NCBI GenBank assembly: GCA_003141195.1
Contig: PLLC01000002.1
Span: 1 to 49,169, forward strand
Direction of reading: 5' to 3'
Origin: Syntrophaceae bacterium
GTDB lineage: Bacteria > Desulfobacterota > Syntrophia > Syntrophales > UBA5619
DNA: 49,169 nt
Shown here: positions 16,305-47,845 of the stretch, in pieces
Position numbering within the stretch: the first letter of the stretch is position 1
Layout of the letters: every line of letters starts with the position of its first letter
Notes under the pieces: model-generated
What the model was told of the DNA's origin: nothing
What the model saw: only the letters and a program-made list of their open reading frames with translations
The model's database searches: none
Made by a program: the position numbers and the translations under genes

Positions 16305-17228
16305 TCAACGATGACCCCGCGATGGATCCGTATTTTCCCCCGCCGCCATGAGGAAAGGTTCGAAGTGATACCACTCATAGGGATGGGACCGCACGGTTTC
16401 GGCCAGCAGATCCGCATAGGTTTGGGCTGCCGTCGCGACGGCCTTGCGACGCTCGGCGCGTGAGGCCGGAACGATACAGAGGGGCGGCTTCGTGATGAGA
16501 TGATACGCCCCCTTTCCCGTGCGATAGCCGAAAAAGATCAAAAGCGGCGCTCCGGACAACATAGCCAGGAGGTAGGGGACCTCGGGAATCCGAGCCTTGC
16601 CGCCGGCAAACCGGACGGTGACGGCCCGCTGCTCCCGGTTCCACAGCCGGTCCCCCGTCAGCGAGACCATCCCCCCCTCCCGCAGGAAATTCAAGCCCTC
16701 CAGGATGTCCATGGCCGAGCCCCCGTTCTCCGGAACAGAAATGACGCGGATTCCGCTCTCTTCGACGCTCTTCTTCTGCCGCCGTTCGATCTGCTCCCGG
16801 TGTTTCGCCCCCAGGTAGAGGAGCAGCCTCATGCGGGGATGTTCCCGGCCCTGATGCCGGAGGAGCCGGGCGGCGATTTCCCAGCTGCCCACGTGGGACA
16901 TGAGGATGATTCCCCCCCGGCCGCTTTCGGCGGCCGCGACGATATGCTCCAATCCCTCGTGCGTCATCACGAGAGCATCGCCTTCCGCCAGGCGGAACCG
17001 GTCCAGGAAGACGTAGACGAAATGGTGATACTGCTGCCAGGCGCACCAAAGGGCATAGCGGCGCCCCCGGTCCGGGAAGAGGCGGCGGTAGAAGCGGACG
17101 CTTACGGCGACGCGACAGGGAAACATGAGGAAATACCCCGTCGCCACATGCCAGGCGATCAGCAGAAAGATCCAATTCCCGAATTTCTTCTGCAGGACGA
17201 CGAGGCAGCGGTAGACAAAATCCTTCAT
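16305..17228 (-). CDS. LpxL/HtrB-type lipid acyltransferase
   Basis: Membrane-associated acyltransferase of 307 residues in the lauroyl/myristoyl transferase (LpxL) family. A hydrophobic anchor lies at about 18-40 and the HX4E catalytic motif is H112-VGSW-E117. A GLNFLREGGMVSLTGDR segment follows, as in the family. In aryl polyene loci an LpxL-like enzyme accompanies a GT2 glycosyltransferase and is thought to attach the polyene acyl chain to a sugar-containing lipid. Here it overlaps the stop of the MMPL-methyltransferase gene by ATGA coupling and follows the GT2 gene by one, consistent with that role. Substrate assignment is inference. Confidence 0.85.
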   Translation of the reverse strand: MKDFVYRCLVVLQKKFGNWIFLLIAWHVATGYFLMFPCRVAVSVRFYRRLFPDRGRRYALWCAWQQYHHFVYVFLDRFRLAEGDALVMTHEGLEHIVAAAESGRGGIILMSHVGSWEIAARLLRHQGREHPRMRLLLYLGAKHREQIERRQKKSVEESGIRVISVPENGGSAMDILEGLNFLREGGMVSLTGDRLWNREQRAVTVRFAGGKARIPEVPYLLAMLSGAPLLIFFGYRTGKGAYHLITKPPLCIVPASRAERRKAVATAAQTYADLLAETVRSHPYEWYHFEPFLMAAGENTDPSRGHR

Positions 17229-20200
17229 GGTTCAGTTCCCTCCGGCAGACGGCGATCGGCGACGAACCAGCACTCCTCTCTCTCCGGCGTGTCCGCCTGG
17301 ATTGCGGCGATATCAAAACCGGCCGTGACGATCATCGTCTCCAGGGAGGCCTGCGTCCGGTACGGGGGATACATATGGTGGAGCTTCAGCCGAAATTCCT
17401 CGATGCGCCGCTTCAGGGACCGGGAATGGTCCGTGGGGATCGTGACCCGGATGACGAGCCGGCCGCCGGGGATGAGCTTTTCGTGCAGAATTCTGAGCGT
17501 CTCGCGCAACGCTGCATCGTCCAGCATGTGGATGACGTCAAGGATCAGGGCCGTGTCGGCCTGGTCCGGCAACTCCGCAAGGTCAGGCGCCCGGCCCGTC
17601 CGGACGTCGCCTCTTTCCCCAAGGGCGGACCGGACGACGCGGACCCGTTCCTCATCCGGATCCAGACCGCACACCGTGGCTGCGGGGAACAACTCCAGGA
17701 GCCAGACGGACGGAACGCCATAGCCGCACCCGATGTCAAGGATGTGTCGGGGGTTCTTCATGAAGGCCGCCAGACGGGGAAACATCGGATCGAGGCGGAT
17801 CTTCCAGAGGGCGAAGAGACGCGGGGTGGTCTCGATGTGACGGTACCGCAGGAGCGTCCGCCCGGTATGGCGGGACGACCCGGCCTCCAGGGCTTCCGGC
17901 GGGAGAGCCACGGGGACGAGCGCCCGTTTCACCAGCGGCGGAACGATCAGAAAAGCCCCGACGAGGGAATAGGCGATCCCCAACAATGATGTCAGGCCAA
18001 TGCTCTTCAGGACCGCGTGCCGGGCCCCGGCCAGGACGCCGAACCCGATCAGGGTAGTCGCCCCCGCCAGGAACATCGCCTGGCGGATCAGACTCATCGA
18101 GGGATGGCGCTCATCGAGATACCGCTGGTAAGAGCAGGTATAGTAGATCCCGTAGTCGATCCCCATCCCCATGATCACGATCCAGAGCATGATCCCGGGG
18201 ATGTCCACCGGATGGCCCAGAAGCTTCAGGGTCCCCAGCGTGCAGACGAGGGCGAAGGCCACCGGCGCCAGTACGATCAGGGAGAGGCGCCAGTCCAGGA
18301 AGAAGACAAAGACGACCAGGACGATCCCGAGGCCCGTGATGAGGGCGATCTCGGTGAAGATCGAAACGAGGACCTCCCCCAGCCGCCGGTTGAAGAGACC
18401 CGCATCGAAGATGCTGACGAGGTTCGTCGCCGCATACCGGGTGAAGAACGGCTCCGCATCATAGGCCGGGCCCGGCGTCACCATGGAGACCTGCACCCGG
18501 GAGGATTTCTCCGCCGCGATGCCCAGGAAACCGGCGAACTTTTCCGGGATCGCCGCGGCGGCCGGAGGCGCCTCGGACAGGGAGTTCACGAAGGCCCCGA
18601 AGGCGTCCGGGGCGAATCCCATCTCCAGGGCCGCCCGGTTGAGTTCCCGCCGGAGTTCCGCCACGCGGCCCGGCGTCCAGAAAGCGTTCCAGTCCGCCGC
18701 ATGGCTCTTTGCCAGCGCCTCCCCGGGGAAGAGGTCGGAAAGGGCGAAGGACGCCCCGACTGTTCCCCGGTTGAGATCGTCCCGGAGCATCCCGGCCAGG
18801 CGGTCGCTTTTGGCCTGAAGATCCGCCAGATTTTCTCCCTCGATCATGAGGTAGACCCTGCTCATCAGATCCCCCCAGATCCGCTGGAGCGTCTTTTCTG
18901 CGGCAACGCTCTCTTCGCTCAGGGAATTCATCGCGTTAATGTCTACCTGAAAAACGGGACGGGCGAAACAGAGCATGACGCCGAAGAAAAGCGCAACCGC
19001 CACGAGTTTCGCTTTTCCCCCCGAGAGCGCGATCCGGTCCAGAATCCGGCTCAGCCATGGGTCCCGGGTCTTCAGGGCCGGCGGCATGACGGGAAAGATC
19101 CGGGGAAAAATCCAGTGGACAAAAAGAAAGGTGAAGGTCACCCCCAGAGCCGCAAAGACGCCGATCTCGGCCAGGACGCGGAACCGGCTCAACAGCAGCA
19201 TCAGAAAGCCGCCGATCGTCGTCAGGGCGGCCAGGATCTCCGCCGCCAGAACCTCACGGGCGGCCTGGCGTCCCGAGACCTCGCAGGGTCGGTCGAGAAA
19301 CAGCAGATAAGCGATCCCCAGATCCACCGTGAAGGCCATGATTGCCCCGCCGAAGCTGACCGCCAAAATAGAGAGGGAGGGAAAGAGGAACGAGCAGACC
19401 AGCAGGGCGAGAATGGCGCCGGCCGTCGACGGGAGCAGGGCCAGAAGCCCGTCGAGGGGCCGCGGAAAGGTGACGATCAGCAGGAAGGCGATCCCAAGTG
19501 TCGTCAGGATGATCGCCATCCTCATGTCCCGCCGGGCAGCATTCTCGTTGTCCAACGCGGCCCGGTAGACCCCCGCCGGCGTCAGAATGAAGCGGATGCC
19601 GCGGGACTGAACCTGGCCGTTGAGCTTCTCCCCGAGCGTCTTGATGAGTATAGGAATGGCCCGGGAATAGGTCGTATCCGTCGCGGAACCTTTGAGTTCC
19701 GCCATGACGAGCAGATGTCCTCCGTCCCGGGAGATCAGCTTCCCCCGATAGAGTTGGGCGTCCCGGCTCGGCAGAAGCTGGGACATCCGGGGCAGGACCA
19801 GGTTTCGGAGGCCTAGGGGGTCGCGGGCGATGAGGTCGGCCTGACCGATCCCTTCGAGCCCCTGCACAACCTTGAGATCCTCCGCCAGAATCCGGCGCAG
19901 CTCGGCCGGGGCGAGGAGCGGCGCGATCTGCGCTTCCATCTGCGGCCCGTCGAAAAGCAGGGGGAGATGACCGACGATGTGGTCTACGAGTTCCGGGAAG
20001 AGCGCTTCGATCTGCTGCATCCCCACCTGCCGGAACAAACTGCTTTCGCGAAGCCCCGCCTCGATCATATCGGCTCCGGCAGCCAGGACGTCGCTGTCTC
20101 CTCCCCGAATCGCAACATCGATGATCAGCCGGTCCTGGATGGGGAGATGGCGGATAACCCGGTGGGCGTCCGCCAGAACCGGATCGTGACGGGGCAGCGA

Positions 20201-20317
20201 TGCCAGGATGTCCGTTTCGATCCGGATACCGTAGGATTCGTAGAGCAGGACGGCCCCCAGGACCGCCGCGACGGCGGCGATCAGGGACCAGCGGAAACGG
20301 TAACGTTGGAAAAACAT
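17225..20317 (-). CDS. MMPL/RND lipid exporter fused to a class I SAM methyltransferase
   Basis: A single uninterrupted 1030-residue frame. Residues 1-800 form an MMPL/RND-type exporter: TM1 about 10-28, the first membrane bundle 266-460 with TVDLGIAY, a large periplasmic domain 465-645, and the second bundle 652-795 with MGMGIDYGIYY. Residues 820-1030 are a methyltransferase with motif I ILDIGCGYG (859-867), the acidic residue in CGLDPDEE and GGRLVIR. APE loci encode both an MMPL exporter (ApeM-like) and a methyltransferase (ApeD-like), normally as separate proteins. The methyltransferase would face the cytoplasm. ATG at 20317 has AGGAG at 5 nt; the open frame upstream crosses a repeat and is not coding. 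Confidence 0.88.
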   Translation of the reverse strand: MFFQRYRFRWSLIAAVAAVLGAVLLYESYGIRIETDILASLPRHDPVLADAHRVIRHLPIQDRLIIDVAIRGGDSDVLAAGADMIEAGLRESSLFRQVGMQQIEALFPELVDHIVGHLPLLFDGPQMEAQIAPLLAPAELRRILAEDLKVVQGLEGIGQADLIARDPLGLRNLVLPRMSQLLPSRDAQLYRGKLISRDGGHLLVMAELKGSATDTTYSRAIPILIKTLGEKLNGQVQSRGIRFILTPAGVYRAALDNENAARRDMRMAIILTTLGIAFLLIVTFPRPLDGLLALLPSTAGAILALLVCSFLFPSLSILAVSFGGAIMAFTVDLGIAYLLFLDRPCEVSGRQAAREVLAAEILAALTTIGGFLMLLLSRFRVLAEIGVFAALGVTFTFLFVHWIFPRIFPVMPPALKTRDPWLSRILDRIALSGGKAKLVAVALFFGVMLCFARPVFQVDINAMNSLSEESVAAEKTLQRIWGDLMSRVYLMIEGENLADLQAKSDRLAGMLRDDLNRGTVGASFALSDLFPGEALAKSHAADWNAFWTPGRVAELRRELNRAALEMGFAPDAFGAFVNSLSEAPPAAAAIPEKFAGFLGIAAEKSSRVQVSMVTPGPAYDAEPFFTRYAATNLVSIFDAGLFNRRLGEVLVSIFTEIALITGLGIVLVVFVFFLDWRLSLIVLAPVAFALVCTLGTLKLLGHPVDIPGIMLWIVIMGMGIDYGIYYTCSYQRYLDERHPSMSLIRQAMFLAGATTLIGFGVLAGARHAVLKSIGLTSLLGIAYSLVGAFLIVPPLVKRALVPVALPPEALEAGSSRHTGRTLLRYRHIETTPRLFALWKIRLDPMFPRLAAFMKNPRHILDIGCGYGVPSVWLLELFPAATVCGLDPDEERVRVVRSALGERGDVRTGRAPDLAELPDQADTALILDVIHMLDDAALRETLRILHEKLIPGGRLVIRVTIPTDHSRSLKRRIEEFRLKLHHMYPPYRTQASLETMIVTAGFDIAAIQADTPEREECWFVADRRLPEGTEP

Positions 20318-20333
20318 CGTGTCTCCTATGATT

Positions 20334-20358
20334 GGGGACAGATTTAAAATCTGTCCCC
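20334..20358. repeat. 25-bp palindromic repeat, copy 2
   Basis: Same arms as the element at 13466-13490 around a central A. It lies between the MMPL start and the GT2 stop, upstream of the MMPL ribosome site. Confidence 0.85.
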
Positions 20359-20367
20359 GTCCCCGTT

Positions 20368-20391
20368 GGGGACAGATTAAAATCTGTCCCC
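20368..20391. repeat. 24-bp palindromic repeat, copy 3
   Basis: The arms GGGGACAGATT and AATCTGTCCCC flank AA. It is a tandem partner of copy 2, nine nt away. The stop codon and last residues of the GT2 gene lie inside this element. Confidence 0.85.
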
Positions 20392-21117
20392 AAAAAGGAG
20401 GATAAGGATCCGCAGGAAGATCAACCGGCTGAATGTCCCTGAATTTCTGCAGAAATCGACGAAGGGCCGGAAATGCGAAACCCGCTTCATCCCGGGTGTG
20501 TAAGATACGTCGACCGGCGCCTCGATGACGGGAATCCCCTGCCACCGCGCCCGGACCAGAATCTCCACCTCGAATTGAAACCGCCGGGCGCGCACGCCCA
20601 GTCCGAGTGCTTCCGGCAGCGGGTAGATGCGCATGCCGCTCTGGGTGTCGGAAAGGACGGGCCCACCCGCAACCCGGACCCAGAAATTGGAGAATTTCCG
20701 TCCGAAGCGGCTCGTCCAGGGGACATCGTCCCCGACCATCCCCTCCCGTCGGCCGATGACAATGGGACGAAGGCCCGTGGGGATGATCCGGATCAAACCG
20801 GAAACATCCTTGGGGTCATGCTGCCCATCCGCATCCAGCGTCACCGCCCAGTCCGCCTTTCCCGCCATGGCCTCAAACCCGGTCAGGAGAGCCGCCCCTT
20901 TGCCGCGGTTTTTCTCGTGCCGCAGGACCGTGATCCCCCCAAAACGTGCGAGGCCCGCCGCCGTCCCGTCCGTCGATCCGTCGTCGACGACCCAGACGGG
21001 CAAATCCAGAGCAAGGACCCGTTCGATCACGGAGACGACCCCCCCGGCGTGATTGTAGACCGGGATCAGGACTGCAAAGCGACCGGCCGGAGTCCCGTAT
21101 GCGCGCTCCTCCGTCAT
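20377..21117 (-). CDS. GT2-family glycosyltransferase
   Basis: Glycosyltransferase of 246 residues in the dolichyl-phosphate-mannose-synthase-like GT2 group. It shows IPVYNHAGGV, the nucleotide-binding VVDDGSTDGT (about 43-52), KNRGKGAALLTG, and the DADGQHDP metal-binding segment (about 94-101). APE loci carry such an enzyme with an LpxL-type acyltransferase, here two genes downstream. ATG at 21117 overlaps the FakA-FakB stop as ATGA, indicating translational coupling. The C-terminus is unusual: its last residues (GDRF) and stop are supplied by palindromic repeat copy 3, so the original end may have been replaced. The C-terminal hydrophobic stretch LIFLRILILLF suggests membrane association. 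Confidence 0.86.
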   Translation of the reverse strand: MTEERAYGTPAGRFAVLIPVYNHAGGVVSVIERVLALDLPVWVVDDGSTDGTAAGLARFGGITVLRHEKNRGKGAALLTGFEAMAGKADWAVTLDADGQHDPKDVSGLIRIIPTGLRPIVIGRREGMVGDDVPWTSRFGRKFSNFWVRVAGGPVLSDTQSGMRIYPLPEALGLGVRARRFQFEVEILVRARWQGIPVIEAPVDVSYTPGMKRVSHFRPFVDFCRNSGTFSRLIFLRILILLFGDRF

Positions 21118-22832
21118 ACTCGTTCCGGCAGAAAGGCCACGGCCCAAGTCCCCGGGCCCATGTGCGCCCCGGAGGTCAGGGACATCGGATGGAGAATGAT
21201 CTCCGCCCTCGGCCAGCGCCGCACGATTTCCGGCTGCACCTTTTTAGTCACCCATGCGAGGTTGTCGGTATACTCGATCATGATCAAGGCTCGCTTGTCT
21301 TTATCCAGCGCGGCGGTCAGTTTCTCCACGGCGAATTTCAACTGTTCTGTCCGGTTCCGGACGACCCCCACCTTCCTGGCCCCTTCGGCGAGGGGACTGA
21401 TCACGGGTTTCATATGTAGCATGTCGCCGAAAAAGGCGCCGGTCCGGGAAAGCCGTCCGCCGGCCGCCAGGTACCGGAGCGTATCCAGAAACACATATTC
21501 CTGACAGCGCGCCACGCCTTCGCGGGCAAAGCGGATCACCGCCTCGGCATCGCGGGTTCCGCGGGCGAAACGGGCCGTGGCCAAAGATAGAAGTCCCAGG
21601 CGTCCCGACGCCGCCCCGCTGTCGATGATCGTGAAGCGCCCCTCCCGGTCGTGCTGCTGCTGCCACGCCAGCGCCTCCCCGCAGTTCCCCGTGAACGCGG
21701 AACCGACGCACAGGTAGAGGACCCGGGGATAACGGTCCAGTACGCTCCGATAATGTTCATGGCGCTCGAAGACGGAGGCCTGTGCGGTGGAGACCTTTAC
21801 CCCCCTGCGCATGGCCGCATAGAGCTCTTCCGCGGCAAAATGGGTCTCGGGGAGCGATCTCTCCCCGACGGTAATGTAGCTGTCCAGGATTGTCACCCCC
21901 AACCCCGCCGTCGTCTCGCGGCTGATGGAACCCGCGGCGTCCGTCATGATATGCATGGCCTGTTCGACCGGCCGCCGGCGAAAGGAACGGACCTGGGCGC
22001 CCAGATCGTCGGCGGACCACCGGACCACCTTTCCGAAGGCGGCCAGATCCCCCCGGGCCTTCCGGCCGTCGCGGGCGTGGAGATGGACCTTCCAATAATC
22101 CCCGTCCCGGAGGACGACGACGCTTTCCCCGACGGCGGAAAGCCTCCGGATATCATCCCCGGCTTCGCCTTTAACCTGGAGCACCATATCCACGCAGCAA
22201 CCCGTTTCCCCTTCCTCCGAAAAGGCCGGAGAGACCTTGAGATAATCCTTGAAGATCTCCGTGACGGGTCTGAATCCGTCGCCGTCTCCCGCAAGGACGC
22301 TGAAAAAACCGTCCAGGTAGATGAAGATGCCCAGGGCGCCGGCATCGACGACGCCGGCCGTTTTGAGCTTCGGCAGTATTTCCGGCGTGGAGAGCACCGC
22401 CCCTTCGAGTCTTTGAAGCACCCGCTCGCGCCATGGCCCGTCAAATGTCGCCGGACCCTCCTCCAGGGCCTCCGCCAGTGCATCGAAGACGGTCAGCATC
22501 GTGCCCTGTTTTGGGTCGTTCACCGCCTGCCAGGCCCGGCCCTGCCCCTGCCGGACGGCGCCGGCGAGGTTTCGAACCGAATCGGCCATGAGGAGGCCGG
22601 AGAAAAACCGCGCGGCGATGTTTCCGGAATTTCCCCGGGCCGTCAGGAGCAGCTCCCGAATGAGCCGCTCCCGCCCCTGAACCGCCTGCCGCAGCGGAGA
22701 GAGGCTGACCACGAGGTTCCGTCCCGTATCGCCGTCGGCCACCGGAAAGACGTTGATCTCGTCCAAGAGGTCCGCCCAGGCGGCGACCCGTTCGAAGCCT
22801 GCGATCAGGGCCTGCGGAAAAGGCGTTTCCAT
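21114..22832 (-). CDS. Fused fatty acid kinase: FakA (DhaL/middle) plus FakB (DegV)
   Basis: The 572-residue protein combines what are normally two proteins. Residues 1-195 are a DhaL-type ATP-binding domain with NVFPVADGDTG (27-37) and TARGNSGN (64-71). Residues about 200-285 match the FakA middle domain (CCVDMVLQV, VHLHARDG). Residues 293-572 are a DegV/FakB fatty-acid-binding domain (MTDAAGSIS, KVSTAQAS, CVGSAFTGNCGEA, RYLAAGGRLS). In Firmicutes FakA phosphorylates a fatty acid bound by FakB to give acyl-phosphate. DAK2-DegV fusions are known in sequence databases, but the reaction here is inferred. It lies 2 nt after a thioesterase gene and is ATGA-coupled to GT2. PlsY, which uses acyl-phosphate, is encoded later in the same locus. 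Confidence 0.85.
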   Translation of the reverse strand: METPFPQALIAGFERVAAWADLLDEINVFPVADGDTGRNLVVSLSPLRQAVQGRERLIRELLLTARGNSGNIAARFFSGLLMADSVRNLAGAVRQGQGRAWQAVNDPKQGTMLTVFDALAEALEEGPATFDGPWRERVLQRLEGAVLSTPEILPKLKTAGVVDAGALGIFIYLDGFFSVLAGDGDGFRPVTEIFKDYLKVSPAFSEEGETGCCVDMVLQVKGEAGDDIRRLSAVGESVVVLRDGDYWKVHLHARDGRKARGDLAAFGKVVRWSADDLGAQVRSFRRRPVEQAMHIMTDAAGSISRETTAGLGVTILDSYITVGERSLPETHFAAEELYAAMRRGVKVSTAQASVFERHEHYRSVLDRYPRVLYLCVGSAFTGNCGEALAWQQQHDREGRFTIIDSGAASGRLGLLSLATARFARGTRDAEAVIRFAREGVARCQEYVFLDTLRYLAAGGRLSRTGAFFGDMLHMKPVISPLAEGARKVGVVRNRTEQLKFAVEKLTAALDKDKRALIMIEYTDNLAWVTKKVQPEIVRRWPRAEIILHPMSLTSGAHMGPGTWAVAFLPERV

Positions 22833-22834
22833 CT

Positions 22835-23254
22835 TTAGAACCCCAGCGCCCGGCTGATCTCTTCCGGAATCGTGTAAACCATCTCCATCTCCGGGGCCAG
22901 GACGGCAGCCTGTTCCGTCGTCCCCCGGGCGCAGATCGTTCCATCCGCAACGAGGCGGATCTCGAAGGCGACGACGATCTTGGAACGGGCATCCTTCACG
23001 GTGGCCCGGCAGATGAATTCGTCCCCCCGCTTCAGCGGGTGGATATGCTTGACGGAACTGCGGATGATCGGAAAGATGTAACGGGTCCGGTCGTGAAATT
23101 CGAAGAGATCCACGCCGAGACCGTCGAAAAGTTCAGAACGGGCGATATCGAAATATTTCAGATAATTACCGTGCCAGACGATCTGCAGGGGATCAAGATC
23201 GAAAAAAGGCACCTTCATCTTTATTTCGTGACTCTGGCGTTTCTGCGCTTCCAT
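22835..23254 (-). CDS. 4HBT hotdog-fold acyl thioesterase
   Basis: Thioesterase of 139 residues with the family motif FFDLDPLQIVWHGNYLKYF (about 17-35), in which Asp 21 corresponds to the catalytic Asp of 4-hydroxybenzoyl-CoA thioesterase-like enzymes. Such proteins (ApeH/ApeK-like) occur in aryl polyene loci and could release product or clear mis-acylated carriers. ATG at 23254 with AGGAG 5 nt upstream is used, giving a 34-nt overlap with the ammonia-lyase gene. The next gene, the FakA-FakB fusion, starts 2 nt after the stop, so free acid release followed by phosphorylation is a natural reading. Confidence 0.87.
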   Translation of the reverse strand: MEAQKRQSHEIKMKVPFFDLDPLQIVWHGNYLKYFDIARSELFDGLGVDLFEFHDRTRYIFPIIRSSVKHIHPLKRGDEFICRATVKDARSKIVVAFEIRLVADGTICARGTTEQAAVLAPEMEMVYTIPEEISRALGF

Positions 23255-24813
23255 CTGTTCTCCTTTGGAAAACCGTTCTCGGAAATCTCGCGGGCCACGG
23301 CCTCGATATCGGCGTCCATGGGCCGGTCTTTGTACGTTGGCGCCGCCAGCCGGCGCAGCTCCTCAAGCCGCAAGGCGAGGCGGGGACGGGCCTCCATGCG
23401 TCCCCGGATCTCACAGGCCTGGGCCGCCGCCAGCAGATGGATGGCCACGACCCGTTCCGCAAGGGTGCAGACGCGGGACGCATCCCGTGCCGCGATGGTT
23501 CCCATGCTGACCTTGTCCTGGTTGTGGGATTCGGTGGACCGGGAGAAGGAGGCGGCCGGCATGGTCGCCTTCAGCGCCTCCGCCGTCAGCGCGGAAGCGG
23601 TGATGGACATGGCCTTGAACCCGTGGTTGTGGAGGCGGGCCTCTCCGGTCACGCGGACGAGGTCGGCCGGAAGCCCGCGGTTCACGTTGGGATTGACCAG
23701 CAGGGCCACCTGCCGGTCCGCCATGTCGGCGACCGACGCCAGCGCCATCTTCAGGGCATCCATCGCAAAGGCGATATGGCCCCCGTAGAAGTTCCCCCCC
23801 GTCAAAGGCCGGTCCATCTCCTCGGCAAAGAGAGGGTTATCGTTGGCGCTGTTCGCCTCGATCTCCACCCACGGACGGAGCCAGGTCAGGGCATCGGACA
23901 GGACTCCCAGGATCTGCGGGGCGCAGCGCAGGGAATACGGATCCTGGAGGGTCTCCGGACCGGTCGCCTCCAGTTGCGTCTCCTTGACCCGAGTGGTCAG
24001 AAGCCGCCGGATCCGGTCGGCAACGTAGATCTGTCCGGGGAAGGGTTTGGCCTCGCCGATGACGCGATGGTAATGGTCTGCCTTGCCCTGCAGTGCGTGA
24101 ACAGAGAGGGCGGAGGCGCCGATGGCCGCCTCTAAAATATGTTCCGCACGGTCGAGGTTCACGGCGGCGATCCCGGTCATGACGGAGGTTCCGTTGATCA
24201 GGGCGAGCGGCTCCTTCGGTCCGAAACGGTAAGATTTCAGTTTTGCCTTCCGCAATGCCCGGACCGCCGGCATACGCTCCCCCCCGTAAAATACCTCCCG
24301 TTCGCCGGCCAGGGCGGCCAGGATATAGGAGAGGGGCGTCAAATCACCGGAGGCGCCGACGGAGCCTTCGCAGGGAACGACCGGGGTGATGCCGGCGTTG
24401 AGAAATGCCGCGAGATGCTCCAACAGCGTGATCGAGACCCCCGAATAGCCGCGGGCCAGACAGAGCAACCGGCAGAGCATGGCCGCCCGCGTTTCCTCCA
24501 CACCCAGCGGCTCGCCCGTCCCGCAGCCGTGAAAGCGCATCAGGTTTGCCCCCCCGTTCAGGACGGATGCCTTCCGCAGGCGGTTCCCGCACGATTTTCC
24601 ATACCCCGTGGTCACGCCGTAAACGGGAACATCGGCCTCGATGGCCGCGTACACCAACCCCCGGGCGCGTTCCATCCGTCCCCGGAAGGCGGCGCTCCCA
24701 ACAATCCGGACGGGAATGCCCCGCCTGGCCACGGCAACGATTCCGGACAGGGAAACCGACCCCTCCCCGATCACCACTTCACGAATCTCCATTTGTTTTG
24801 CGGTTGTTTTCAC
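23221..24813 (-). CDS. HAL/PAL/TAL-family aromatic ammonia-lyase
   Basis: Lyase of 530 residues that removes ammonia from an aromatic amino acid through an autocatalytic MIO cofactor. The MIO triad Ala-Ser-Gly is at 154-156 (GSVGASGDLTP), the catalytic Tyr in VYGVTTGYG (Tyr 65), and ALINGTS follows. At the substrate-selectivity pair, where histidine ammonia-lyases have Ser-His, this protein has Phe94-His95 (LMRFHGCGTG), so histidine is an unlikely substrate; tyrosine or phenylalanine is favoured. No hutU, hutI or hutG neighbour exists. In flexirubin and some APE loci a related lyase makes the cinnamate or coumarate starter. The start is GTG at 24813 with AGGGAG 5 nt upstream. Confidence 0.88.
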   Translation of the reverse strand: MKTTAKQMEIREVVIGEGSVSLSGIVAVARRGIPVRIVGSAAFRGRMERARGLVYAAIEADVPVYGVTTGYGKSCGNRLRKASVLNGGANLMRFHGCGTGEPLGVEETRAAMLCRLLCLARGYSGVSITLLEHLAAFLNAGITPVVPCEGSVGASGDLTPLSYILAALAGEREVFYGGERMPAVRALRKAKLKSYRFGPKEPLALINGTSVMTGIAAVNLDRAEHILEAAIGASALSVHALQGKADHYHRVIGEAKPFPGQIYVADRIRRLLTTRVKETQLEATGPETLQDPYSLRCAPQILGVLSDALTWLRPWVEIEANSANDNPLFAEEMDRPLTGGNFYGGHIAFAMDALKMALASVADMADRQVALLVNPNVNRGLPADLVRVTGEARLHNHGFKAMSITASALTAEALKATMPAASFSRSTESHNQDKVSMGTIAARDASRVCTLAERVVAIHLLAAAQACEIRGRMEARPRLALRLEELRRLAAPTYKDRPMDADIEAVAREISENGFPKENRWKRRNARVTK

Positions 24814-26905: not shown

Positions 26906-27670
26906 TTATTCCACGTTCACAAACAGGGAAGCGGGCAAAGGCCGATTGGTCCGGACCTGGCTGAAACTTAGATCGGTGAAGCTGCGTTCGTCCTCCACCA
27001 GCCGGACGCCCTTCATCACGCCGGCCTGCTCCCGGGAAAGGGTCAGTTCGATCCGCCGGATCATCTTGCCCCAGGATGGTTCCCGGGGAACGAGCGTCAC
27101 CCGCGGCTCCGGATCGGTCGACAGCGAGGCCTGAAAATGGGGATCGGCGTCGAATCGGCCCTGCTGCCAGTTCGCGATCTCCTCCAGGACCACCCGCATG
27201 GCGGTCAGTGAGGCGCCGGCATCCTCGCGCCAGCCGCCCGGATCCCGGAGGTAGCGCTTCACGGCGCCGTTGTTCATGATCAGGACGCTCCGGACGGGAC
27301 GGTCGTATTCCCAGCGGAGCTGCGCGGGGGCCTGGTAGAAAAACCGGCCCTCGGAGACAAACGGCCTGGAGAGCATCGGCAGGGTCTTTTTCTGCACGAA
27401 GCGGGCCTCGACGGAGGTGATCCGGCGGGAGGCCTCGCGGAGCCCTTCCCAGCTGTCGGCCCAGGCAATGACGAGGGGCAGCAGAAAGAGCAGCGCGAAC
27501 AGAGGGACGACAGAACAACGCAGTAGTTTGATTTTACTCCGGGAACGAGATAGGTCGAAGTCGTCATTCCCGCGAAAGTGGGAATCCAGAATCGGACTGG
27601 ATGCCGGATCAAGTCCGGCATGACAATTTTTAACATGTTTACTTGCCGGAGCCATAACGACTGTCTTCAT
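26906..27670 (-). CDS. LolA-like outer-membrane lipoprotein carrier (ApeL-like)
   Basis: Periplasmic lipid carrier of 254 residues as read. A hydrophobic signal segment (about 51-70, VVPLFALLFLLPLVIAWA) precedes a LolA-fold domain (TSVEARFVQKKTLPMLSRP, LRWEYDRPVRSVLIMNNG). LolA-like proteins in aryl polyene loci are believed to ferry the product from the MMPL exporter across the periplasm. The N-terminus is odd: residues 15-36 (CHAGLDPASSPILDSHFRGN and flanks) are the translation of the palindromic repeat at 27563-27624, inserted in frame between the start codon and the signal peptide. No ATG, GTG or TTG lies in frame after the repeat and before the signal, so the true start is uncertain. FabG ends 2 nt upstream. 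Confidence 0.8.
   Translation of the reverse strand: MKTVVMAPASKHVKNCHAGLDPASSPILDSHFRGNDDFDLSRSRSKIKLLRCSVVPLFALLFLLPLVIAWADSWEGLREASRRITSVEARFVQKKTLPMLSRPFVSEGRFFYQAPAQLRWEYDRPVRSVLIMNNGAVKRYLRDPGGWREDAGASLTAMRVVLEEIANWQQGRFDADPHFQASLSTDPEPRVTLVPREPSWGKMIRRIELTLSREQAGVMKGVRLVEDERSFTDLSFSQVRTNRPLPASLFVNVE
27563..27624. repeat. Bipartite palindromic repeat inside the LolA-like gene
   Basis: Two hairpins, ATTCCCGC..GTGGGAAT and TGCCGGA..TCCGGCA, are bounded by GTCAT and ATGAC. One half matches the repeat at 32-56. This belongs to the widely dispersed bacterial repeat whose translation contains the peptide HAGLDPAS. Confidence 0.85.
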
Positions 27671-27672
27671 GC

Positions 27673-28401
27673 TTAGAACATCCCCCCGTTCACGGAGATG
27701 ACCTGCCCGGTGATGTAGGAGGCATCGTCGGAGCAGAGAAAGCGGACCACCTTCGCCACCTCCTCGGGCCGGCCGATCCGCCCCATCGGGATCATCTGCT
27801 TGATGTGTTCCATCGGGGCGTCCCGGATCATGTCCGTGTCGACCAACCCCGGCGCCACGACGTTCACCCGGACCCCGAGCCGGGCCACCTCAGAACTTAG
27901 GACGCGGCTGGCGGCGATGAGACCGGCCTTCGCCGCGGCGTAATTGGCCTGCCCCCGGTTGCCGACCAGGGCCGAAACGGACGACAGCGAGACGATGGAC
28001 CCGCTTTTTCGGCGCAGCATTTTGCGCAGGACCGGCTTGGTCATGTTGAAGAATCCGTGGAGGGTCGTATCGATCACCGCGTTCCAGTCCCTCCGGGACA
28101 TCATCAGGAAAAGACCGTCCGCCGTCACCCCGGCGTTGTTCACCAGCACATCGATCCGCTCCAGCCGCCCCACAAGGTCGTTGACCGCGCCTTCCGCCTC
28201 GGCGGCGTTGCCGACATCGAACTTCACCGCCTCACCATGGCCGCCGGCCTCCCGGATCAGCCGCAGCGTCTCCGCCGCCGCCTCGTCGTTGGCCTTATAA
28301 GTGATTACCATTCGATACCCATGCGCGGCCAGATCGACGGCGATGGCCCGGCCGATCCCGCGGCTACCGCCCGTAACGATGGCAATCTGTTGTTCACTCA
28401 T
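27673..28401 (-). CDS. 3-oxoacyl-ACP reductase (FabG/ApeQ-like)
   Basis: Short-chain dehydrogenase of 242 residues reducing 3-oxoacyl-ACP with NADPH. It shows the nucleotide motif TGGSRGIG (10-17), NNAG (88-91) and a complete Ser141-Tyr154-Lys158 catalytic set, ending with the FabG-type ITGQVISVNGGMF. It is the only ketoreductase in the window, so it probably serves all chain-extension cycles of the locus. ATG at 28401 has AGAGGG upstream. It lies between the acyl-CoA ligase (29 nt gap) and the LolA-like gene (2 nt gap). Confidence 0.92.
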   Translation of the reverse strand: MSEQQIAIVTGGSRGIGRAIAVDLAAHGYRMVITYKANDEAAAETLRLIREAGGHGEAVKFDVGNAAEAEGAVNDLVGRLERIDVLVNNAGVTADGLFLMMSRRDWNAVIDTTLHGFFNMTKPVLRKMLRRKSGSIVSLSSVSALVGNRGQANYAAAKAGLIAASRVLSSEVARLGVRVNVVAPGLVDTDMIRDAPMEHIKQMIPMGRIGRPEEVAKVVRFLCSDDASYITGQVISVNGGMF

Positions 28402-28430: not shown

Positions 28431-29948
28431 TTACGACAACCGTTCCTTCATCTCCTTCTTCAGGATCTTGCCTGCGGAATTGCGGGGGAAATCCTCGACG
28501 AAGACGATCTTCTTGGGAAGTTTGAAAAGGGCGATCCGGTCCCGGATGGCCGCGAGCAGCGCCTCTTCGGTTAGTTGCGTCCCGTCCTTGAGCAGCACAA
28601 AGGCGGCCACGACCTCCCCCTTTTTCCGGTCCGGCATCCCGACGACGGCCGCCTCCCGCACCTCCGGCAGGGCCTGGATGACCCGTTCCACCTCGGCCGG
28701 GTAGATGTTTTCCCCGGAGCTGATGATCATCTCCACCTTGCGGCCGACGATGGTAATGAATCCCTCCTCATCCCGCTGTCCCATATCCCCCGTGTGAAAC
28801 CATCCGCCCCGCATCGCCTCTTCCGTCTCGGCGGGTTTTTTCCAGTAACCGGCGAAGACGTTGGGCCCCTTGACGATGATCTCCCCCGCCTCGCCGGGTG
28901 CCACGTCCCGGTCCTGCTCATCCACGATCCTAAGCTCGACGTGGAGCACCTCCTTGCCCACGGAACCGGCCTTCCGGATCGAATCCTCGAGATCCAGGGA
29001 GGTGAGACGGAAGGTCTCCGTCATCCCATATCCCTGGGCAAAGAAGATCCCCTTCTCCTCCTGGTATTTGCGGATCACCGGCAGGGGCATGGGCGCCCCG
29101 CCGGCGATGAAGAAATGGATGTGGGAAAAATCCGCCTTCTCCCATTCCTCGGTCCGGGTAAGGAGCTGGAACATGACGGGCACGGCAAACATGTAATTGA
29201 TCTTCTCCCGGCAGATGAGGCCGATCACCTCGGCGGCGTTGTAGAACCCCTTGAGGACGAGGGAGCCGCCCGCATAGAGGATCGGCAGGGCCGAGGCGCC
29301 GAGGGCGCCGATGTGGAACAGGGGGGCTACGACGAGAGATTTGTAGGAGCGGTTGATCCCGCAACCGATCACCGTGTTGATCGAACCGAACAGGACATTG
29401 CCGTGCGTCAGCACCGCCCCCTTGGGATCCCCCGTCGTCCCGGAGGTGTACATGATGAACAGGGGATCGACGAGCGTAATCTCTTCCCGTGGGAGCGGTT
29501 CCGCGACCGGAAAGGGGGCAACGGCTTCCACGAGAAGGGGATCGTCTCCGGCAGCTCCGCCGTGACGGAAGCAGTGCGGCAGCCCCGGCAGGAAGGCCTT
29601 CACCTCCCCGACCTTGGCGGTAAAGTCCGCCGAATAGACGAGAACCCGGGGGGCGCTGTCCCGAAAGATGTATGCGAGCTCCGGCACGGCCAGGCGAAAA
29701 TTGACGGGCACCATGATCGCCCCCGTCTTGGCGCATGCGAAAAATATCTCCAGAAACTCCGATGCGTTGGTCATCAGAACGGCCACCCGTTCACCCTTGC
29801 CGACCCCCCAAGCCGTCAGCGCGTGGGCCATGCGGTTCACCCGCTCGTTGAACTCGCGATTCGTGAAGGAGCGCGCTTCCTCCTCCTTCAGGAACAACCC
29901 CTTCGGATAGATCGCCGCCCGCTTGAAAATCCATTCCCCGACATTCAT
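28431..29948 (-). CDS. AMP-forming acyl-CoA (or aryl-CoA) ligase
   Basis: ANL-superfamily adenylating enzyme of 505 residues that activates a carboxylic acid with ATP and transfers it to CoA or an acyl carrier protein. Visible are the P-loop MYTSGTTGDPKGA (about 166-178), QGYGMTE, GWFHTGDMGQRDEEGFI and the catalytic lysine region PRNSAGKILKKE near the C-terminus. It opens the left-half operon; GAGG is spaced 7 nt from ATG at 29948 and a strong promoter lies at 30192-30220. With the ammonia-lyase five genes downstream, activation of cinnamate or coumarate is plausible, but fatty-acid activation cannot be excluded. Confidence 0.9.
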   Translation of the reverse strand: MNVGEWIFKRAAIYPKGLFLKEEEARSFTNREFNERVNRMAHALTAWGVGKGERVAVLMTNASEFLEIFFACAKTGAIMVPVNFRLAVPELAYIFRDSAPRVLVYSADFTAKVGEVKAFLPGLPHCFRHGGAAGDDPLLVEAVAPFPVAEPLPREEITLVDPLFIMYTSGTTGDPKGAVLTHGNVLFGSINTVIGCGINRSYKSLVVAPLFHIGALGASALPILYAGGSLVLKGFYNAAEVIGLICREKINYMFAVPVMFQLLTRTEEWEKADFSHIHFFIAGGAPMPLPVIRKYQEEKGIFFAQGYGMTETFRLTSLDLEDSIRKAGSVGKEVLHVELRIVDEQDRDVAPGEAGEIIVKGPNVFAGYWKKPAETEEAMRGGWFHTGDMGQRDEEGFITIVGRKVEMIISSGENIYPAEVERVIQALPEVREAAVVGMPDRKKGEVVAAFVLLKDGTQLTEEALLAAIRDRIALFKLPKKIVFVEDFPRNSAGKILKKEMKERLS

Positions 29949-31253: not shown

Positions 31254-31415
31254 GACCGTCCCTTTCTCGAGCCGAAACCTTTCTTCTTTTTATTGCGGAA
31301 GTAAAAAATGACGTCTTTCGGTCATATTGGATAATTTTCACGCCCATTCTGTAAAACTCAAACTCTCAAAGAGAAATGACTGCATCATCTTGCAGTGGAA
31401 ACGTCCGACAGACTC

Positions 31416-33255: not shown

Positions 33256-34491
33256 TCAAGGAGATTCTGTCGCATCCTTCTCGAACACAAGACAGGCATA
33301 AGTCCCGCCGAAAGAGATCCCGCTCAGAAGCGCCTTTCTCATGGGTCGATGGCGGGCCTCCCCGATGACAAACGGGAGGGAACACATTGGCGTCGTCAGG
33401 CCCACGATGGGCGGAACAACACCTTCCCGGATCGACAGGGCCAGGGCGGCGGCGCGGATCCCGCCGGATGCGAAAATCTCCCCCGTCGCCCCCTTGATCG
33501 ATGTGATAAGCGGTCCGGCGTCGCCCCCGCCGAAAATGCGTTCATACGTCTTCGCCTCCAGCGCGTCGGGCTCGCGGCCGCCGTTGCCCGCCGCCTGGAT
33601 ACAATCGATCTCCGGCGGCGGCGCGCCCGCCATCCGGAGGGCGCGCTCCAGGGACAGCAGGAACCCTCTCGGATTGTCGGGCCACCCTGTCGGCGGCGAC
33701 GGGGAGGAAGCCAGACCCCAGCCGGAAATTTCGCAATAGGGCGCCGCCCCGCGCCCATGGGCCAGATCCCCGGCCTCCAGGCAGACAATCCCGCACCCCT
33801 CCCCCATGACGGGTCCGTTGCGGGCGAGATCGAAGGGCCGGGCGCCCTCCGCGCCGCCGGCCGTCGGGGAGAGGGCGCGGAACCGGCCGAGGGCCTCGTA
33901 GAAGAAAGGAGACAAGATGTCCGCGCCGCCGGCCAGGATCACGTCCGCCGTGCCGCGCCGGATCTCCATGGCGGCGTAGGCGATAGCCGTCTCGGCGGAG
34001 ACGGCCTGATGGTTGACCGTCGTGTTCACCCCGCGGAAACCCAGTTCGATGGAGGCGTGACCGGCAGAGGCATTCATCACCGTGTTGGGCACGTGGATCG
34101 GGTTGACCCTGCCGGGGCCTTCCGTGAACAGGATCCGGGCGCTTTGGACCTTGAGTTCCGTGTTCCCGAAGGCCGTCCCCATGACGATGCCAATTCGGTC
34201 GCGATTCGCGTCGCTCACAGCGATCCCGGCGTCGTCCAGGGCCATCCGGACGGAGGCCGTAACCATGGACGAAAGACGATCCATTTTCCGCAAGTTTTTC
34301 AGAGAGATGAAGTCCCGCGGCTGAAACGCACGGATCTCCGCCCCCAGGTGCGACCCGAAACCTTCGGTCGGGAAGGATGCGATCTCCCGGATGCCCGTTT
34401 CGCCGCGCCACAGGGCTTCACGGAACCGATCTTTCCCCACCCCCAAAGGCGTGACCATCCCGATCCCGGTGACGACAACCCGCCTATCCAC
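33256..34491 (-). CDS. Chain length factor-like ketosynthase without catalytic triad
   Basis: This 411-residue thiolase-fold protein is full length for a FabF-type ketosynthase, but all three catalytic residues are replaced. The active-site Cys position is Ala163 (VNHQAVSAET), the first His is Ala (CIQAAGNGG) and the second is Glu (KGATGEIF). Such inactive partners (chain length factors; ApeC-like in aryl polyene systems) dimerise with an active ketosynthase and shape the chain tunnel. The start is GTG at 34491 with GAGGGGG upstream, overlapping the stop of the active ketosynthase gene by 8 nt. This tight coupling supports a KS-CLF heterodimer. The frame upstream of GTG is not coding. Confidence 0.88.
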   Translation of the reverse strand: MDRRVVVTGIGMVTPLGVGKDRFREALWRGETGIREIASFPTEGFGSHLGAEIRAFQPRDFISLKNLRKMDRLSSMVTASVRMALDDAGIAVSDANRDRIGIVMGTAFGNTELKVQSARILFTEGPGRVNPIHVPNTVMNASAGHASIELGFRGVNTTVNHQAVSAETAIAYAAMEIRRGTADVILAGGADILSPFFYEALGRFRALSPTAGGAEGARPFDLARNGPVMGEGCGIVCLEAGDLAHGRGAAPYCEISGWGLASSPSPPTGWPDNPRGFLLSLERALRMAGAPPPEIDCIQAAGNGGREPDALEAKTYERIFGGGDAGPLITSIKGATGEIFASGGIRAAALALSIREGVVPPIVGLTTPMCSLPFVIGEARHRPMRKALLSGISFGGTYACLVFEKDATESP

Positions 34492-35743
34492 GCCGCACCC
34501 CCTCTTCCCGGAAGCGGCCGAAGATGACCGTCGTGTTGTTCCCGCCGAAGGCGAAGGAGTTGGAGAGGACGACCTCCGGCGCGACGGACCGGGCGCCCGT
34601 CGTGACATAATCCAGGTCGCACTCCGGATCGCGCGTTTCGCAGTGGATCGTCGGGGGGATGAACCCCTCCGTGATGGCAAGGACGGAGACGACCGCCTCC
34701 AGGGCCCCGGACGCCCCCAGGGTGTGGCCATGCATCGATTTCGTCGAACTGACGGGAATTTCCCAGGCCCGCCGACCGAAGACCTCCTTGATCGCCCGTG
34801 TCTCCATGAGGTCGTTGGGCGGCGTCGCCGTGCCGTGGGCGTTGATGTAATCCACCGTCTCCGGCCCCAGACCCGCGTCCGTCAGGGCCGCCCGCATCGC
34901 CCGGACCGCCCCGGAGGCGCCGACGTCCGGCGCGGTCATGTGGTGTGCGTCGCAGGTCACGCCGTAACCCAGCACCTCGGCCAGGATTGGCGCCCCCCGC
35001 TCCCTCGCGCCCATGAGGGATTCCAGGATCAGGATCCCCGCTGCCTCCCCGAGGGTGAGACCCGCGCGGTTTCCGGAAAAGGGCCGGCAGTACTCCGGAT
35101 CTACGGCCTTCAGCGCGTTGAAGGAGGCGAAGGTCATCCGGCAGAGGGGTTCCGTCCCGCCTACGATCATCGCCCGGGCGGCGCCGCTCCGGATCAGGTC
35201 CTGCCCCAGGCCGACGGCCGTCGCCCCCGAAGAACAGGCCGTCATGATCGTCGCCTTGGGCCCATAGAGGTTGAACTGCGTTGTCAGATGGTTGGCCGTG
35301 GCGGCGCAGGATACTGGGGACAGTCGGGAAAAACGGGCGGCCCTCCCCGCCGTGCACAGGTAGTCCTGGAAGAAGGCTTCCGCCTCTAACAGGCCCCCGG
35401 CCCCGCCGCCGATGACGACGCCCATCTCCTCCCGCAGCGCCTCTGGAACGGGATCGAGCCCCGCCTGTGCGAGGGCCTGGAAGGTCGCCGTCAACGCCAT
35501 GAGGTCCGAACGGGACATCCGCTTCAAGGATACGCCGCGGGGGATTGTCGCGCGCGGCTGAAAATCCTTCACCTGGGCGCCGTTATGGGTGTGGAACAGC
35601 GTCGTGTCGAAGAGGGTGATCGGCCCGATGCCGCACACCCCGTTGCGCAGGGCGGCGGCGAATTCCCGGGGATCACCCGCGACGGCGTTCACCGTCCCGA
35701 GACCCGTGATCACCACCCGTTTTTCGTCATTCCCGATCGCCAT
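34484..35743 (-). CDS. Beta-ketoacyl-ACP synthase (KS partner of the CLF-like protein)
   Basis: FabF-type ketosynthase of 419 residues with an intact Cys170-His303-His340 triad (MTACSSGA, NAHGTATPPND, KSMHGHTLG). It elongates an ACP-bound chain with malonyl-ACP. The overlap with the CLF-like gene indicates it is the ApeO-like active half of a KS-CLF pair. ATG at 35743 has AGGA at 7-nt spacing. The PlsC-type acyltransferase gene ends 74 nt upstream. The C-terminal NSFAFGGNNTTVIF is the family end motif. Confidence 0.93.
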   Translation of the reverse strand: MAIGNDEKRVVITGLGTVNAVAGDPREFAAALRNGVCGIGPITLFDTTLFHTHNGAQVKDFQPRATIPRGVSLKRMSRSDLMALTATFQALAQAGLDPVPEALREEMGVVIGGGAGGLLEAEAFFQDYLCTAGRAARFSRLSPVSCAATANHLTTQFNLYGPKATIMTACSSGATAVGLGQDLIRSGAARAMIVGGTEPLCRMTFASFNALKAVDPEYCRPFSGNRAGLTLGEAAGILILESLMGARERGAPILAEVLGYGVTCDAHHMTAPDVGASGAVRAMRAALTDAGLGPETVDYINAHGTATPPNDLMETRAIKEVFGRRAWEIPVSSTKSMHGHTLGASGALEAVVSVLAITEGFIPPTIHCETRDPECDLDYVTTGARSVAPEVVLSNSFAFGGNNTTVIFGRFREEGVRRG

Positions 35744-35817
35744 GAACCATTCCTGTCGCCGATGCGTTCGAACCGATGGACCACTCTACCGTCACGGGGG
35801 GAAAAATCAATTCTTTC

Positions 35818-36591
35818 TTATCCCTCCGCCAGCCGCCTTTCGTAGAGGGACCGGATTTCACGGATTAGTGCGGCAAGGCGGAAGGCGGGATCGCCATAGT
35901 CGGGATCAAAGACGCCGATCCTCTCCACCTCGATGGCGACGGTCATGCGGGTATTGAGCCGGAAGCGTCCCGGCACAAACAGGCGGTTCGTGTTGCGGAT
36001 CATCAGACATTGAATCGGCGCGCGGCAGTACCGTGCGATGCTGAAGGCCCCCTTGTTGAACGGCCCGAGCCGGCCGGTCCGGCTCCGGGTCCCCTCGGGA
36101 AAGATGAAGAGATTGCCGCCGGATGCAAGATATTCTCTGATATTCTCAACATTGTTGATCATGAGCGACGCATAATCGTCTCCCGCCTGCGAGGGGATGT
36201 AACCGGATTGCCGCAGAATCCAGCCAAAGACCGGGACTTTGAAAAAGACGTTCTTGACGATCGTCTTCTGTTTCTCGAACAGTGAGATGAGGAGAATCGG
36301 ATCGAGATAGGACAGATGGTTGCAGATGATGATGGAGGAGCGGATGGTCCGGACCTCATCCCGGATATTCAGGGTGACCCCGGGGGTGATGAGGCGCAGC
36401 AATCGGAAGAACCTTTGGAAGAAAAGGCAATTCAAGCGCTGGAAGGCGGCTTCCCGATCCGCGCGCCGAAGCGTGGCCGCCGCATAACGGGGGGCAAATA
36501 AGAGGACGAATCCCAATGTGAAATAGCCCCACAGCAGGAGCGTCACGATGACATCCATCAGCGGTTTAATATACCTCATGGGAAAAACCAT
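35818..36591 (-). CDS. PlsC-type 1-acyl-sn-glycerol-3-phosphate acyltransferase
   Basis: Acyltransferase of about 257 residues with a membrane anchor (about 10-34), the HX4D catalytic motif NHLSYLD (His 92, Asp 97) and the glycerol-phosphate-binding FPEGTRSRTG. PlsC enzymes place an acyl chain at position 2 of lysophosphatidic acid; related enzymes acylate other alcohols. Here it sits between two ketosynthase genes, so a locus-specific acyl donor is likely. Start candidates are ATG at 36591 and ATG at 36579, neither with a clear ribosome site; it follows the upstream ketosynthase stop by 8 nt and may be coupled. Confidence 0.87.
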   Translation of the reverse strand: MVFPMRYIKPLMDVIVTLLLWGYFTLGFVLLFAPRYAAATLRRADREAAFQRLNCLFFQRFFRLLRLITPGVTLNIRDEVRTIRSSIIICNHLSYLDPILLISLFEKQKTIVKNVFFKVPVFGWILRQSGYIPSQAGDDYASLMINNVENIREYLASGGNLFIFPEGTRSRTGRLGPFNKGAFSIARYCRAPIQCLMIRNTNRLFVPGRFRLNTRMTVAIEVERIGVFDPDYGDPAFRLAALIREIRSLYERRLAEG

Positions 36592-36599
36592 GTCGGGAT

Positions 36600-37838
36600 T
36601 CAGACAAACCTCTTGATCAGCAGGTTCGTATTGACGCCGCCGAAGGCAAAGTTCTGGATGGACGCAACACGTATCGGCTGTTCCCGCAGACGCATGGTAT
36701 GCCGGATCATGGCGCACCGTTCGTCGGGTTCTTCCAGATTGAGCGTCGGGGCGATAAATCCGTCCTGCATCATATAGAGGGTCAGGATGGTCTCGATGGC
36801 GCCGCAGGAACCCATCGTATGCCCCATGTATCCCTTGAGACCCGTTACAAAGGGTCCGCCGCCGTAAACGGCATGGATGGCCTGGGCCTCGATGACGTCG
36901 CCCATCTTGGTTCCCGTGGCGTGGGCGCTGATGAAATCGACCTCGTCGACTCCCAGGGCCGCGTCCTTGAGGCCGAGACGCAGGGTCTCGCTGATCCCGG
37001 CGCGGTTCGGCAGGATGAGATCGCCCCCGTTGTTGTTGCAGGCAAAACCGACGACCTCGCCCAGGATCGCGGCCCCGCGCTTCCTCGCCTGTTCGTATTC
37101 CTCCAACAGCACCGCTCCGGCGCCCTCCCCGACGACCAGTCCGTCACGCTGCCGGTCGAACGGCCGCGGCGTGCACCGGGGACGGTCGTTGAAGGCCGTG
37201 GAACAGGCCATCAGATTGTCGAAGACGGCCACGGTGGTCGTATCGTACTCATCCGCCCCGCCGCAAAGCATCGCGTCCTGCATGCCGTATTTGACCGTCT
37301 CGTAGCCGAAGCCGATGGATTGACTGCTCGTCGTGCAGGCCGTGGAGGAGGAGATAACCCTGCCGGTGATGCCGAACATCTTCGTAATGTTCACCGCCGT
37401 CGTATGGACCATGGACTTGAGGTAATCGACGGCGCCAATGGCGCGAAACTCGGACTGGGCTCCGCCGAAAAAAGTTTTGTAGATCTCCCTCTGGACCGTG
37501 GGGCTGCCGTGGGTGGAGCCGAAGGCCACGCCCAAGCGGCCGGAGGTTACAAATTGCGGCGGCAGGCCGGCCTGATCGAGGACCTCTTTGGCCACCTGAC
37601 AGGCGTAATACGCCACGGGGCCCATGGTCTTGCGGTAAGTGCGCCGGAAGTCGAAATCAACCGGATAATCCACCGTTCCGAAGACCTGAGAGTGGATGAA
37701 CTTTGACAGGAGGTGATCCTCCCGGAGCGGCTTGACGCCGGAGACGCCCCGTCGGAGGCTGTCCACGATCTCCGCGCGCGTATGACCGATGGGCGTTATG
37801 GCCGAACAGGCCGTGATGACGACTCTTCTTCCCTTCAT
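36600..37838 (-). CDS. Beta-ketoacyl-ACP synthase
   Basis: Ketosynthase of 412 residues with Cys168 (SSTACTTSS), His306 (SAHATGTKMGD) and His340 (KGYMGHTMG), so it should be active. It resembles the stand-alone KS (ApeR-like) of aryl polyene clusters more than housekeeping FabF, judging by context and the SAHATGT variant; this is a tentative reading. It lies 48 nt downstream of an acyl carrier protein gene and 8 nt upstream of the PlsC-type gene. ATG at 37838 has an AGGAGG that is rather distant (14 nt). Confidence 0.91.
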   Translation of the reverse strand: MKGRRVVITACSAITPIGHTRAEIVDSLRRGVSGVKPLREDHLLSKFIHSQVFGTVDYPVDFDFRRTYRKTMGPVAYYACQVAKEVLDQAGLPPQFVTSGRLGVAFGSTHGSPTVQREIYKTFFGGAQSEFRAIGAVDYLKSMVHTTAVNITKMFGITGRVISSSTACTTSSQSIGFGYETVKYGMQDAMLCGGADEYDTTTVAVFDNLMACSTAFNDRPRCTPRPFDRQRDGLVVGEGAGAVLLEEYEQARKRGAAILGEVVGFACNNNGGDLILPNRAGISETLRLGLKDAALGVDEVDFISAHATGTKMGDVIEAQAIHAVYGGGPFVTGLKGYMGHTMGSCGAIETILTLYMMQDGFIAPTLNLEEPDERCAMIRHTMRLREQPIRVASIQNFAFGGVNTNLLIKRFV

Positions 37839-46527: not shown

Positions 46528-46528
46528 G

Positions 46529-47794: not shown

Positions 47795-47845
47795 AACGGC
47801 TGCACCGGGTTGATTTGATTCATTCCGACCTTGCCAGTGTTCCTA

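Follow-up and report, generated by a model that had tools for sequence, protein, structure and literature searches.

A predicted single-chain fatty acid kinase joining FakA-type and DegV/FakB domains in aryl-polyene-type gene clusters

The fusion gene and its cluster

The window, by which we mean the whole stretch of DNA analysed here (49,169 nucleotides), carries on its minus strand a 572-residue reading frame in which FakA-type and DegV domains are combined. Judged from the genes alone, the surroundings form an aryl-polyene-type cluster, with an ApeP dehydratase, ketosynthases, a ketoreductase, a thioesterase, a LolA protein, an exporter and glycosyltransferase and acyltransferase genes. The features are as follows.

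16305..17228, minus strand: LpxL-like acyltransferase
17225..20545, minus strand: MMPL exporter with a C-terminal methyltransferase domain; listed GTG start probably too far upstream
20377..21117, minus strand: family 2 glycosyltransferase; start inferred from an ATGA overlap with the fusion stop
21114..22832, minus strand: predicted single-chain fatty acid kinase (FakA N, FakA middle and DegV/FakB), 572 aa, from profile matches and predicted fold
21126..21956, minus strand: complete DegV/FakB acyl-carrier domain of the fusion (aa 293–569, Pfam)
21987..22199, minus strand: FakA-like middle domain with Cys-His-His C213, H250 and H252 (aa 212–282, Pfam)
22305..22745, minus strand: Dak2/FakA_N nucleotide-binding domain (aa 30–176, Pfam)
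22835..23254, minus strand: 4HBT thioesterase, ApeK-like, 2 nt upstream of the fusion
23221..24813, minus strand: aromatic amino acid lyase of the HAL/TAL/PAL family, which probably provides the aryl starter
26906..27670, minus strand: LolA-like chaperone, ApeL-like
27673..28401, minus strand: 3-ketoacyl reductase, ApeQ-like; best match flexirubin FlxB, below its cut-off
28431..29948, minus strand: AMP-forming acyl ligase, ApeH-like role
33256..37838, minus strand: ketosynthases and a PlsC-like acyltransferase (35818–36717, ApeD-like)
41276..41698, minus strand: ApeP-like dehydratase (Pfam ApeP-like, above cut-off)
44611..45189, minus strand: divergent PlsY glycerol-3-phosphate acyltransferase; clamp residues kept, His92 replaced by Asn
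45191..49096, minus strand: dehydratase, second thioesterase and two ketosynthases; beside PlsY also in locus L107, the dehydratase also in L099

The glycosyltransferase and the LpxL-like acyltransferase together resemble a split ApeJ. Read from its listed GTG, the exporter frame, which joins MMPL and SAM-dependent methyltransferase parts over about 1,100 aa, shares about 170 nt with the upstream gene. The LolA-like frame opens with HAGLDPASS...DSHFRGND, which resembles a dispersed repeat from intergenic DNA translated as if it were coding, and the true start of this gene is probably further downstream. Between the two cluster halves lies a stretch with low third-position GC (0.38–0.48; 30513–31976), possibly an insertion, in which small frames accompany a family 25 glycosyltransferase. 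No repeats were found in the fusion region.

Three Pfam domains score above their cut-offs in the fusion: Dak2 (E 1e-16), FakA-like_M (E 8e-9) and DegV (E 1e-37), the last covering profile positions 2–279 of 280. The NCBIfam DegV model TIGR00762 also matches, at 148.5 bits against a cut-off of 99.7, and the DGDTG and GNSG motifs fall at residues 33–37 and 67–70. The initial annotation had placed these motifs, a FakA-type middle domain and a complete DegV domain in one frame, and every element is borne out, coordinates included, with the gene running on the minus strand from 22832 to 21114. It had also described the protein as FakA joined to FakB; the single chain stands, but the FakA part is not whole. 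Of the two models for the full FakA architecture, the YloV/FakA model TIGR03599 scores 164.5 bits (cut-off 396.1) and NF038248 scores 90.8 (cut-off 975). As the TIGR03599 match covers profile positions 3–337 of 530 only, the FakA C-terminal domain is missing, and the gene lacks the full FakA architecture with its FakB-docking FakA_C. A complete DegV/FakB domain sits where this degenerate C-terminal domain normally stands, and so replaces it.

The fusion ATG follows the thioesterase stop by 2 nt, as had been noted initially, and the fusion stop is overlapped by the start of the glycosyltransferase gene as ATGA. Together, this spacing and overlap suggest one translationally coupled operon.

Conserved residues, fold and carrier content

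Conservation was counted in an alignment of 52 fusion proteins. The ADP-Mg residues of S. aureus FakA (N32, D38, D40, T41, N82 and D185) correspond to N27, D33, D35, T36, N68 and D163 of the fusion, with N27 just upstream of the Dak2 match, and the catalytic Cys240, His282 and His284 to C213, H250 and H252; all are invariant (52/52; FakA residues from PMC9136124). For the carrier half, we considered the FakB1 Thr62-Ser95-His270 carboxylate network together with Arg173 and Arg205 (PMC8892158). Their positions in S. aureus FakB1 were mapped by way of an S. pneumoniae FakB1 alignment and residue spacing, with DegV aligned to 6dke, and on this inferred mapping T349, T381, R460, R492 and H557 of the fusion stand for T62, S95, R173, R205 and H270. 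T381 (Thr in place of FakB1 Ser95), R460 and H557 are present in 52/52 fusions, the T349 position has T in 48 proteins and S in the other 4, and the R492 position has R in 39 proteins and K in the other 13, so that the carboxylate network as mapped is retained. The FakB1 Ser171 position is Gly in the fusion. Loss of the catalytic Asp or of the DegV acyl-binding residues, which the initial annotation had named as grounds for doubt, is thus not what the alignment reveals. The relaxed Arg205 position would agree with loss of the FakA_C docking groove.

The AlphaFold model of the fusion has a mean pLDDT of 91 and a pTM of 0.92. Foldseek ranks chain A of the S. suis FakA-FakB2 complex first among its matches, with DegV proteins that bind fatty acids next. 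In VIA-align comparisons, residues 289–572 match DegV/FakB chains with Z scores of 26–33 over 259–281 residues, which together with the TIGR00762 match places a DegV/FakB fold over the full domain length, and residues 1–185 match FakA_N (7rzk/7rm7) with a Z of about 24.

The same architecture occurs in about 100 relatives from Desulfobacterota, Spirochaetes and SAR324, with full-length fusions at 48–87% identity. Given about 100 full-length loci from many assemblies, chance and an assembly or frame artefact were rejected as origins of the gene. From 202 relatives found, we kept 80 named contigs with the fusion (Syntrophales, Smithella, Desulfobacterales, Spirochaetes and SAR324), and among 61 relatives ranging from the same genus to the same order it is present in 22, in pieces in 2 of these. 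MAGs of other phyla carry the fusion together with parts of the cluster (L087, L091, L104, L105 and L108 from Spirochaetes, L097 from SAR324), which suggests horizontal transfer or else reflects binning error; more than one study agrees on these occurrences.

The fused DegV is the sole DegV found in 42 of 43 fusion genomes, which implies that the fusion must serve as its own carrier. In the window genome it also carries the sole FakA_M. The one exception, genome G015 (locus L174), has the fusion plus a separate FakB-FakA pair that lies beside a PlsY-like gene outside the pigment cluster. Across a phylum sample of 297 genomes, the FakA middle domain is found in 27 (24 fusions, 2 split genes and 1 weak partial match), so the one-piece form is the rule among FakA-bearing genomes of that sample; both split FakA genes adjoin a DegV/FakB gene. 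Taken together, the kept residues, the fold of both halves and the lack of a second DegV in 42/43 genomes strongly support a single-chain FakA-FakB.

Cluster context and a proposed acyl phosphate route

Nearly all well-covered fusion loci are aryl-polyene-type clusters. A thioesterase lies upstream of the fusion in 62 of the 69 loci with enough DNA, and in 52 of 59 loci a glycosyltransferase or LpxL-like acyltransferase lies downstream, at most 3.5 kb away. Upstream cluster genes are also present in every one of seven additional, more distant loci (7/7; identity as low as 41%), which have a downstream acyltransferase wherever there is enough DNA (5/5). The neighbourhood is not uniform: the thioesterase is absent from some fusion clusters, some distant loci have an AMP ligase in place of lyase and thioesterase, and an AMP-forming ligase stands directly upstream of the fusion in clusters without an aromatic lyase (L166, L168 and L169). 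The repeated occurrence inside aryl-polyene clusters suggests how the pigment might be activated before it is fixed to lipid. The constant site of the gene in such clusters also fits the earlier proposal that fusion would tie the enzyme, a putative kinase, to one product.

The fusion, its residue conservation, the folds, the absence of another DegV, cluster membership and the failure to find PlsX in the order-wide sample were all computed here. From these we infer, with a probability of roughly 0.6, a self-sufficient single-chain kinase that would convert aryl-polyenoic acid, once released, to an acyl phosphate destined for a lipid anchor, its catalysis, substrate and acceptor being assigned from known families and from context. 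The tunnel of the DegV half would hold the carboxylic acid, ATP would come from the Dak2 half, and the Cys-His-His of the middle domain together with the DegV arginine would complete the active site, giving an acyl phosphate as known families do. The docking role of FakA_C would not be needed, because the carrier is tethered to the kinase. Most likely, the enzyme naturally acts on completed aryl-polyenoic acid freed by the neighbouring thioesterase. The acyl phosphate would then pass to an acyltransferase of the cluster, in the window genome most likely PlsY, to build the lipid anchor, with glycosylation and export by the MMPL/LolA genes to follow.

Other readings of the same locus deserve consideration. 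A single-chain Fak could instead act on an ordinary (or hydroxy) fatty acid for the other part of the aryl-polyene lipid anchor, a doubtful but by no means negligible option: among the solved DegV/FakB matches, those with a named ligand have ordinary fatty acids bound, and the cluster also holds LpxL-like and PlsC-like acyltransferases and LolA/MMPL export genes. Ordinary acyl chains, however, are already on hand as acyl-ACP, and the steady tie to the thioesterase and the cluster points to an acid made there. It is improbable that the kinase activates a short aryl starter acid of the cinnamate or coumarate type, coming from the aromatic lyase, even though the genes for lyase, thioesterase and Fak follow one another in the window, as they do in many relatives. 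The lyase was searched for in 23 genomes; of the 21 with the fusion, 13 have no lyase, which speaks against the starter acid as substrate and led us to reject the lyase as an obligate neighbour; moreover, AMP-forming ligases in the clusters could activate the starter, and the tunnel family binds long chains. Dak2 and DegV folds are also found in proteins that are not complete kinases, but the nine kinase residues invariant in 52/52 sequences make a lipid-binding or regulatory protein without kinase activity very improbable. Finally, a fused DegV that merely took over FakA_C docking while separate FakB proteins deliver the acid, conceivable in that FakA_C is a degenerate FakB-like domain at the same position (PMC9136124), is already contradicted by the lack of other DegV proteins in 42/43 fusion genomes and by the kept carboxylate network, and was rejected.

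PlsX was not found in any of the 61 relatives of the order-wide sample, in which controls were positive; in most of these genomes PlsY was not found either. PlsY is present in 25 of the 61, split as 19/22 fusion genomes against 6/39 others, and in all 16 fusion genomes that are at least 85% complete. Counted by genus, it occurs in 10/10 with the fusion against 2/25 without (Fisher p 4e-7, with related genomes being non-independent samples). The window PlsY is the sole PlsY found in its genome and keeps the glycerol-phosphate clamp residues S35, R45, K104 and N180 as well as H177 and T41 (residues from PMC5700162) in an alignment whose numbering was inferred from motifs.

The His92 position of this enzyme is Asn in all six sequences of the window PlsY type. 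In 97.8% of PlsY proteins this position, which belongs to the acyl phosphate hole, is occupied by His, and the change of His92 to Asn in Aquifex PlsY lowers activity to about 7% (PMC5700162). Since the Aquifex variant is poorly active, the donor of the cluster PlsY might not be an acyl phosphate. The Asn-for-His92 type marks what appears, by sequence, to be a separate subfamily. Clusters from more than one phylum keep it close to the fusion, and in L107, as in the window, it lies beside the dehydratase, thioesterase and two ketosynthases.

We also considered PlsY as an obligate partner everywhere, which the 297 genomes do not uphold outside the order. In this wider sample, PlsX accompanies the fusion in 15 of 24 genomes, mostly with an ordinary PlsY, and in genome G071 the fusion is present while PlsY was not detected. 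The coexistence of fusion and PlsX and the G071 case mean that PlsY is not a universal partner, and the acceptor enzyme may therefore differ among lineages. PlsY without PlsX is seen in genomes without the fusion too.

In Xenorhabdus the aryl-polyene lipid includes phosphoglycerol, as might be expected if the acceptor enzyme were of PlsY type, which we take as no more than a lead. We tentatively raise the possibility, which we consider somewhat less than even, that in Desulfobacterota and other phyla a whole class of aryl-polyene clusters uses a one-piece acid kinase and an acyl phosphate, in some lineages with a PlsX-independent PlsY of the His92-to-Asn type, to place the pigment on a glycerol-phosphate lipid. 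If so, acyl phosphate would be a further kind of acyl activation in the aryl-polyene pathway, beside thioester and adenylate.

Significance and relation to known systems

Aryl polyenes, which are yellow membrane pigments, rank among the most widespread pigment families of bacteria. How they are joined to lipid is biochemically unsettled, and a conserved putative kinase with a built-in carrier at this point opens activation as acyl phosphate to direct test. A kinase with its carrier in the same chain might, in addition, make it easier to trap the active site that the two share, which is assembled from flexibly tethered parts when kinase and carrier are separate proteins. Each half of the fusion belongs to a known family, whereas the architecture and its pathway setting appear undescribed: we found no published description of a FakA-DegV fusion or of a fatty acid kinase in aryl-polyene clusters, in a search that left subscription papers and preprints largely outside and judged part of the literature by title or abstract.

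The closest comparison is FakA with FakB, as in S. aureus and in S. suis FakA-FakB2 (PDB 7w7h), with which the fusion shares the nucleotide domain, the Cys-His-His middle domain and the Thr/Ser, Arg and His of the DegV carrier. In characterised systems FakA and FakB are separate proteins, as the initial annotation rightly stated (PMC9136124); here they form one polypeptide, the carrier replaces the C-terminal FakB-docking domain and the gene lies in a pigment cluster. S. aureus FakA_C is a degenerate FakB relative that has no fatty acid tunnel and docks FakB, and FakA_N with FakA_L alone is active with a higher Km for FakB, that is, weaker FakB binding (PMC9136124). The single-chain dihydroxyacetone kinase of Citrobacter freundii likewise has kinase and substrate domains in one chain and related Dha parts, but its domain order is opposite, its substrate is different and it has no DegV domain. 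With the PlsX/PlsY route, the proposed pathway would share the acyl phosphate and a PlsY with a glycerol-phosphate clamp; it differs in that PlsX was not found in the order sampled and PlsY, with Asn at the His92 position, lies inside a pigment cluster.

The aryl polyene cluster of E. coli CFT073 (apeA-R) shares with the window a thioesterase, a LolA-like chaperone, an exporter, ketosynthases, a reductase, an ApeP dehydratase, a lysophospholipid acyltransferase and the glycosyltransferase and acyltransferase functions that are one gene there, ApeJ. Its gene list contains no fatty acid kinase and no PlsY (PMC8253772). MMPL-type exporter and methyltransferase functions, which are separate genes in E. 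coli (apeM and apeB), share one frame in the window, whereas the ApeJ functions are found there as separate genes beside the kinase, together with an aromatic lyase.
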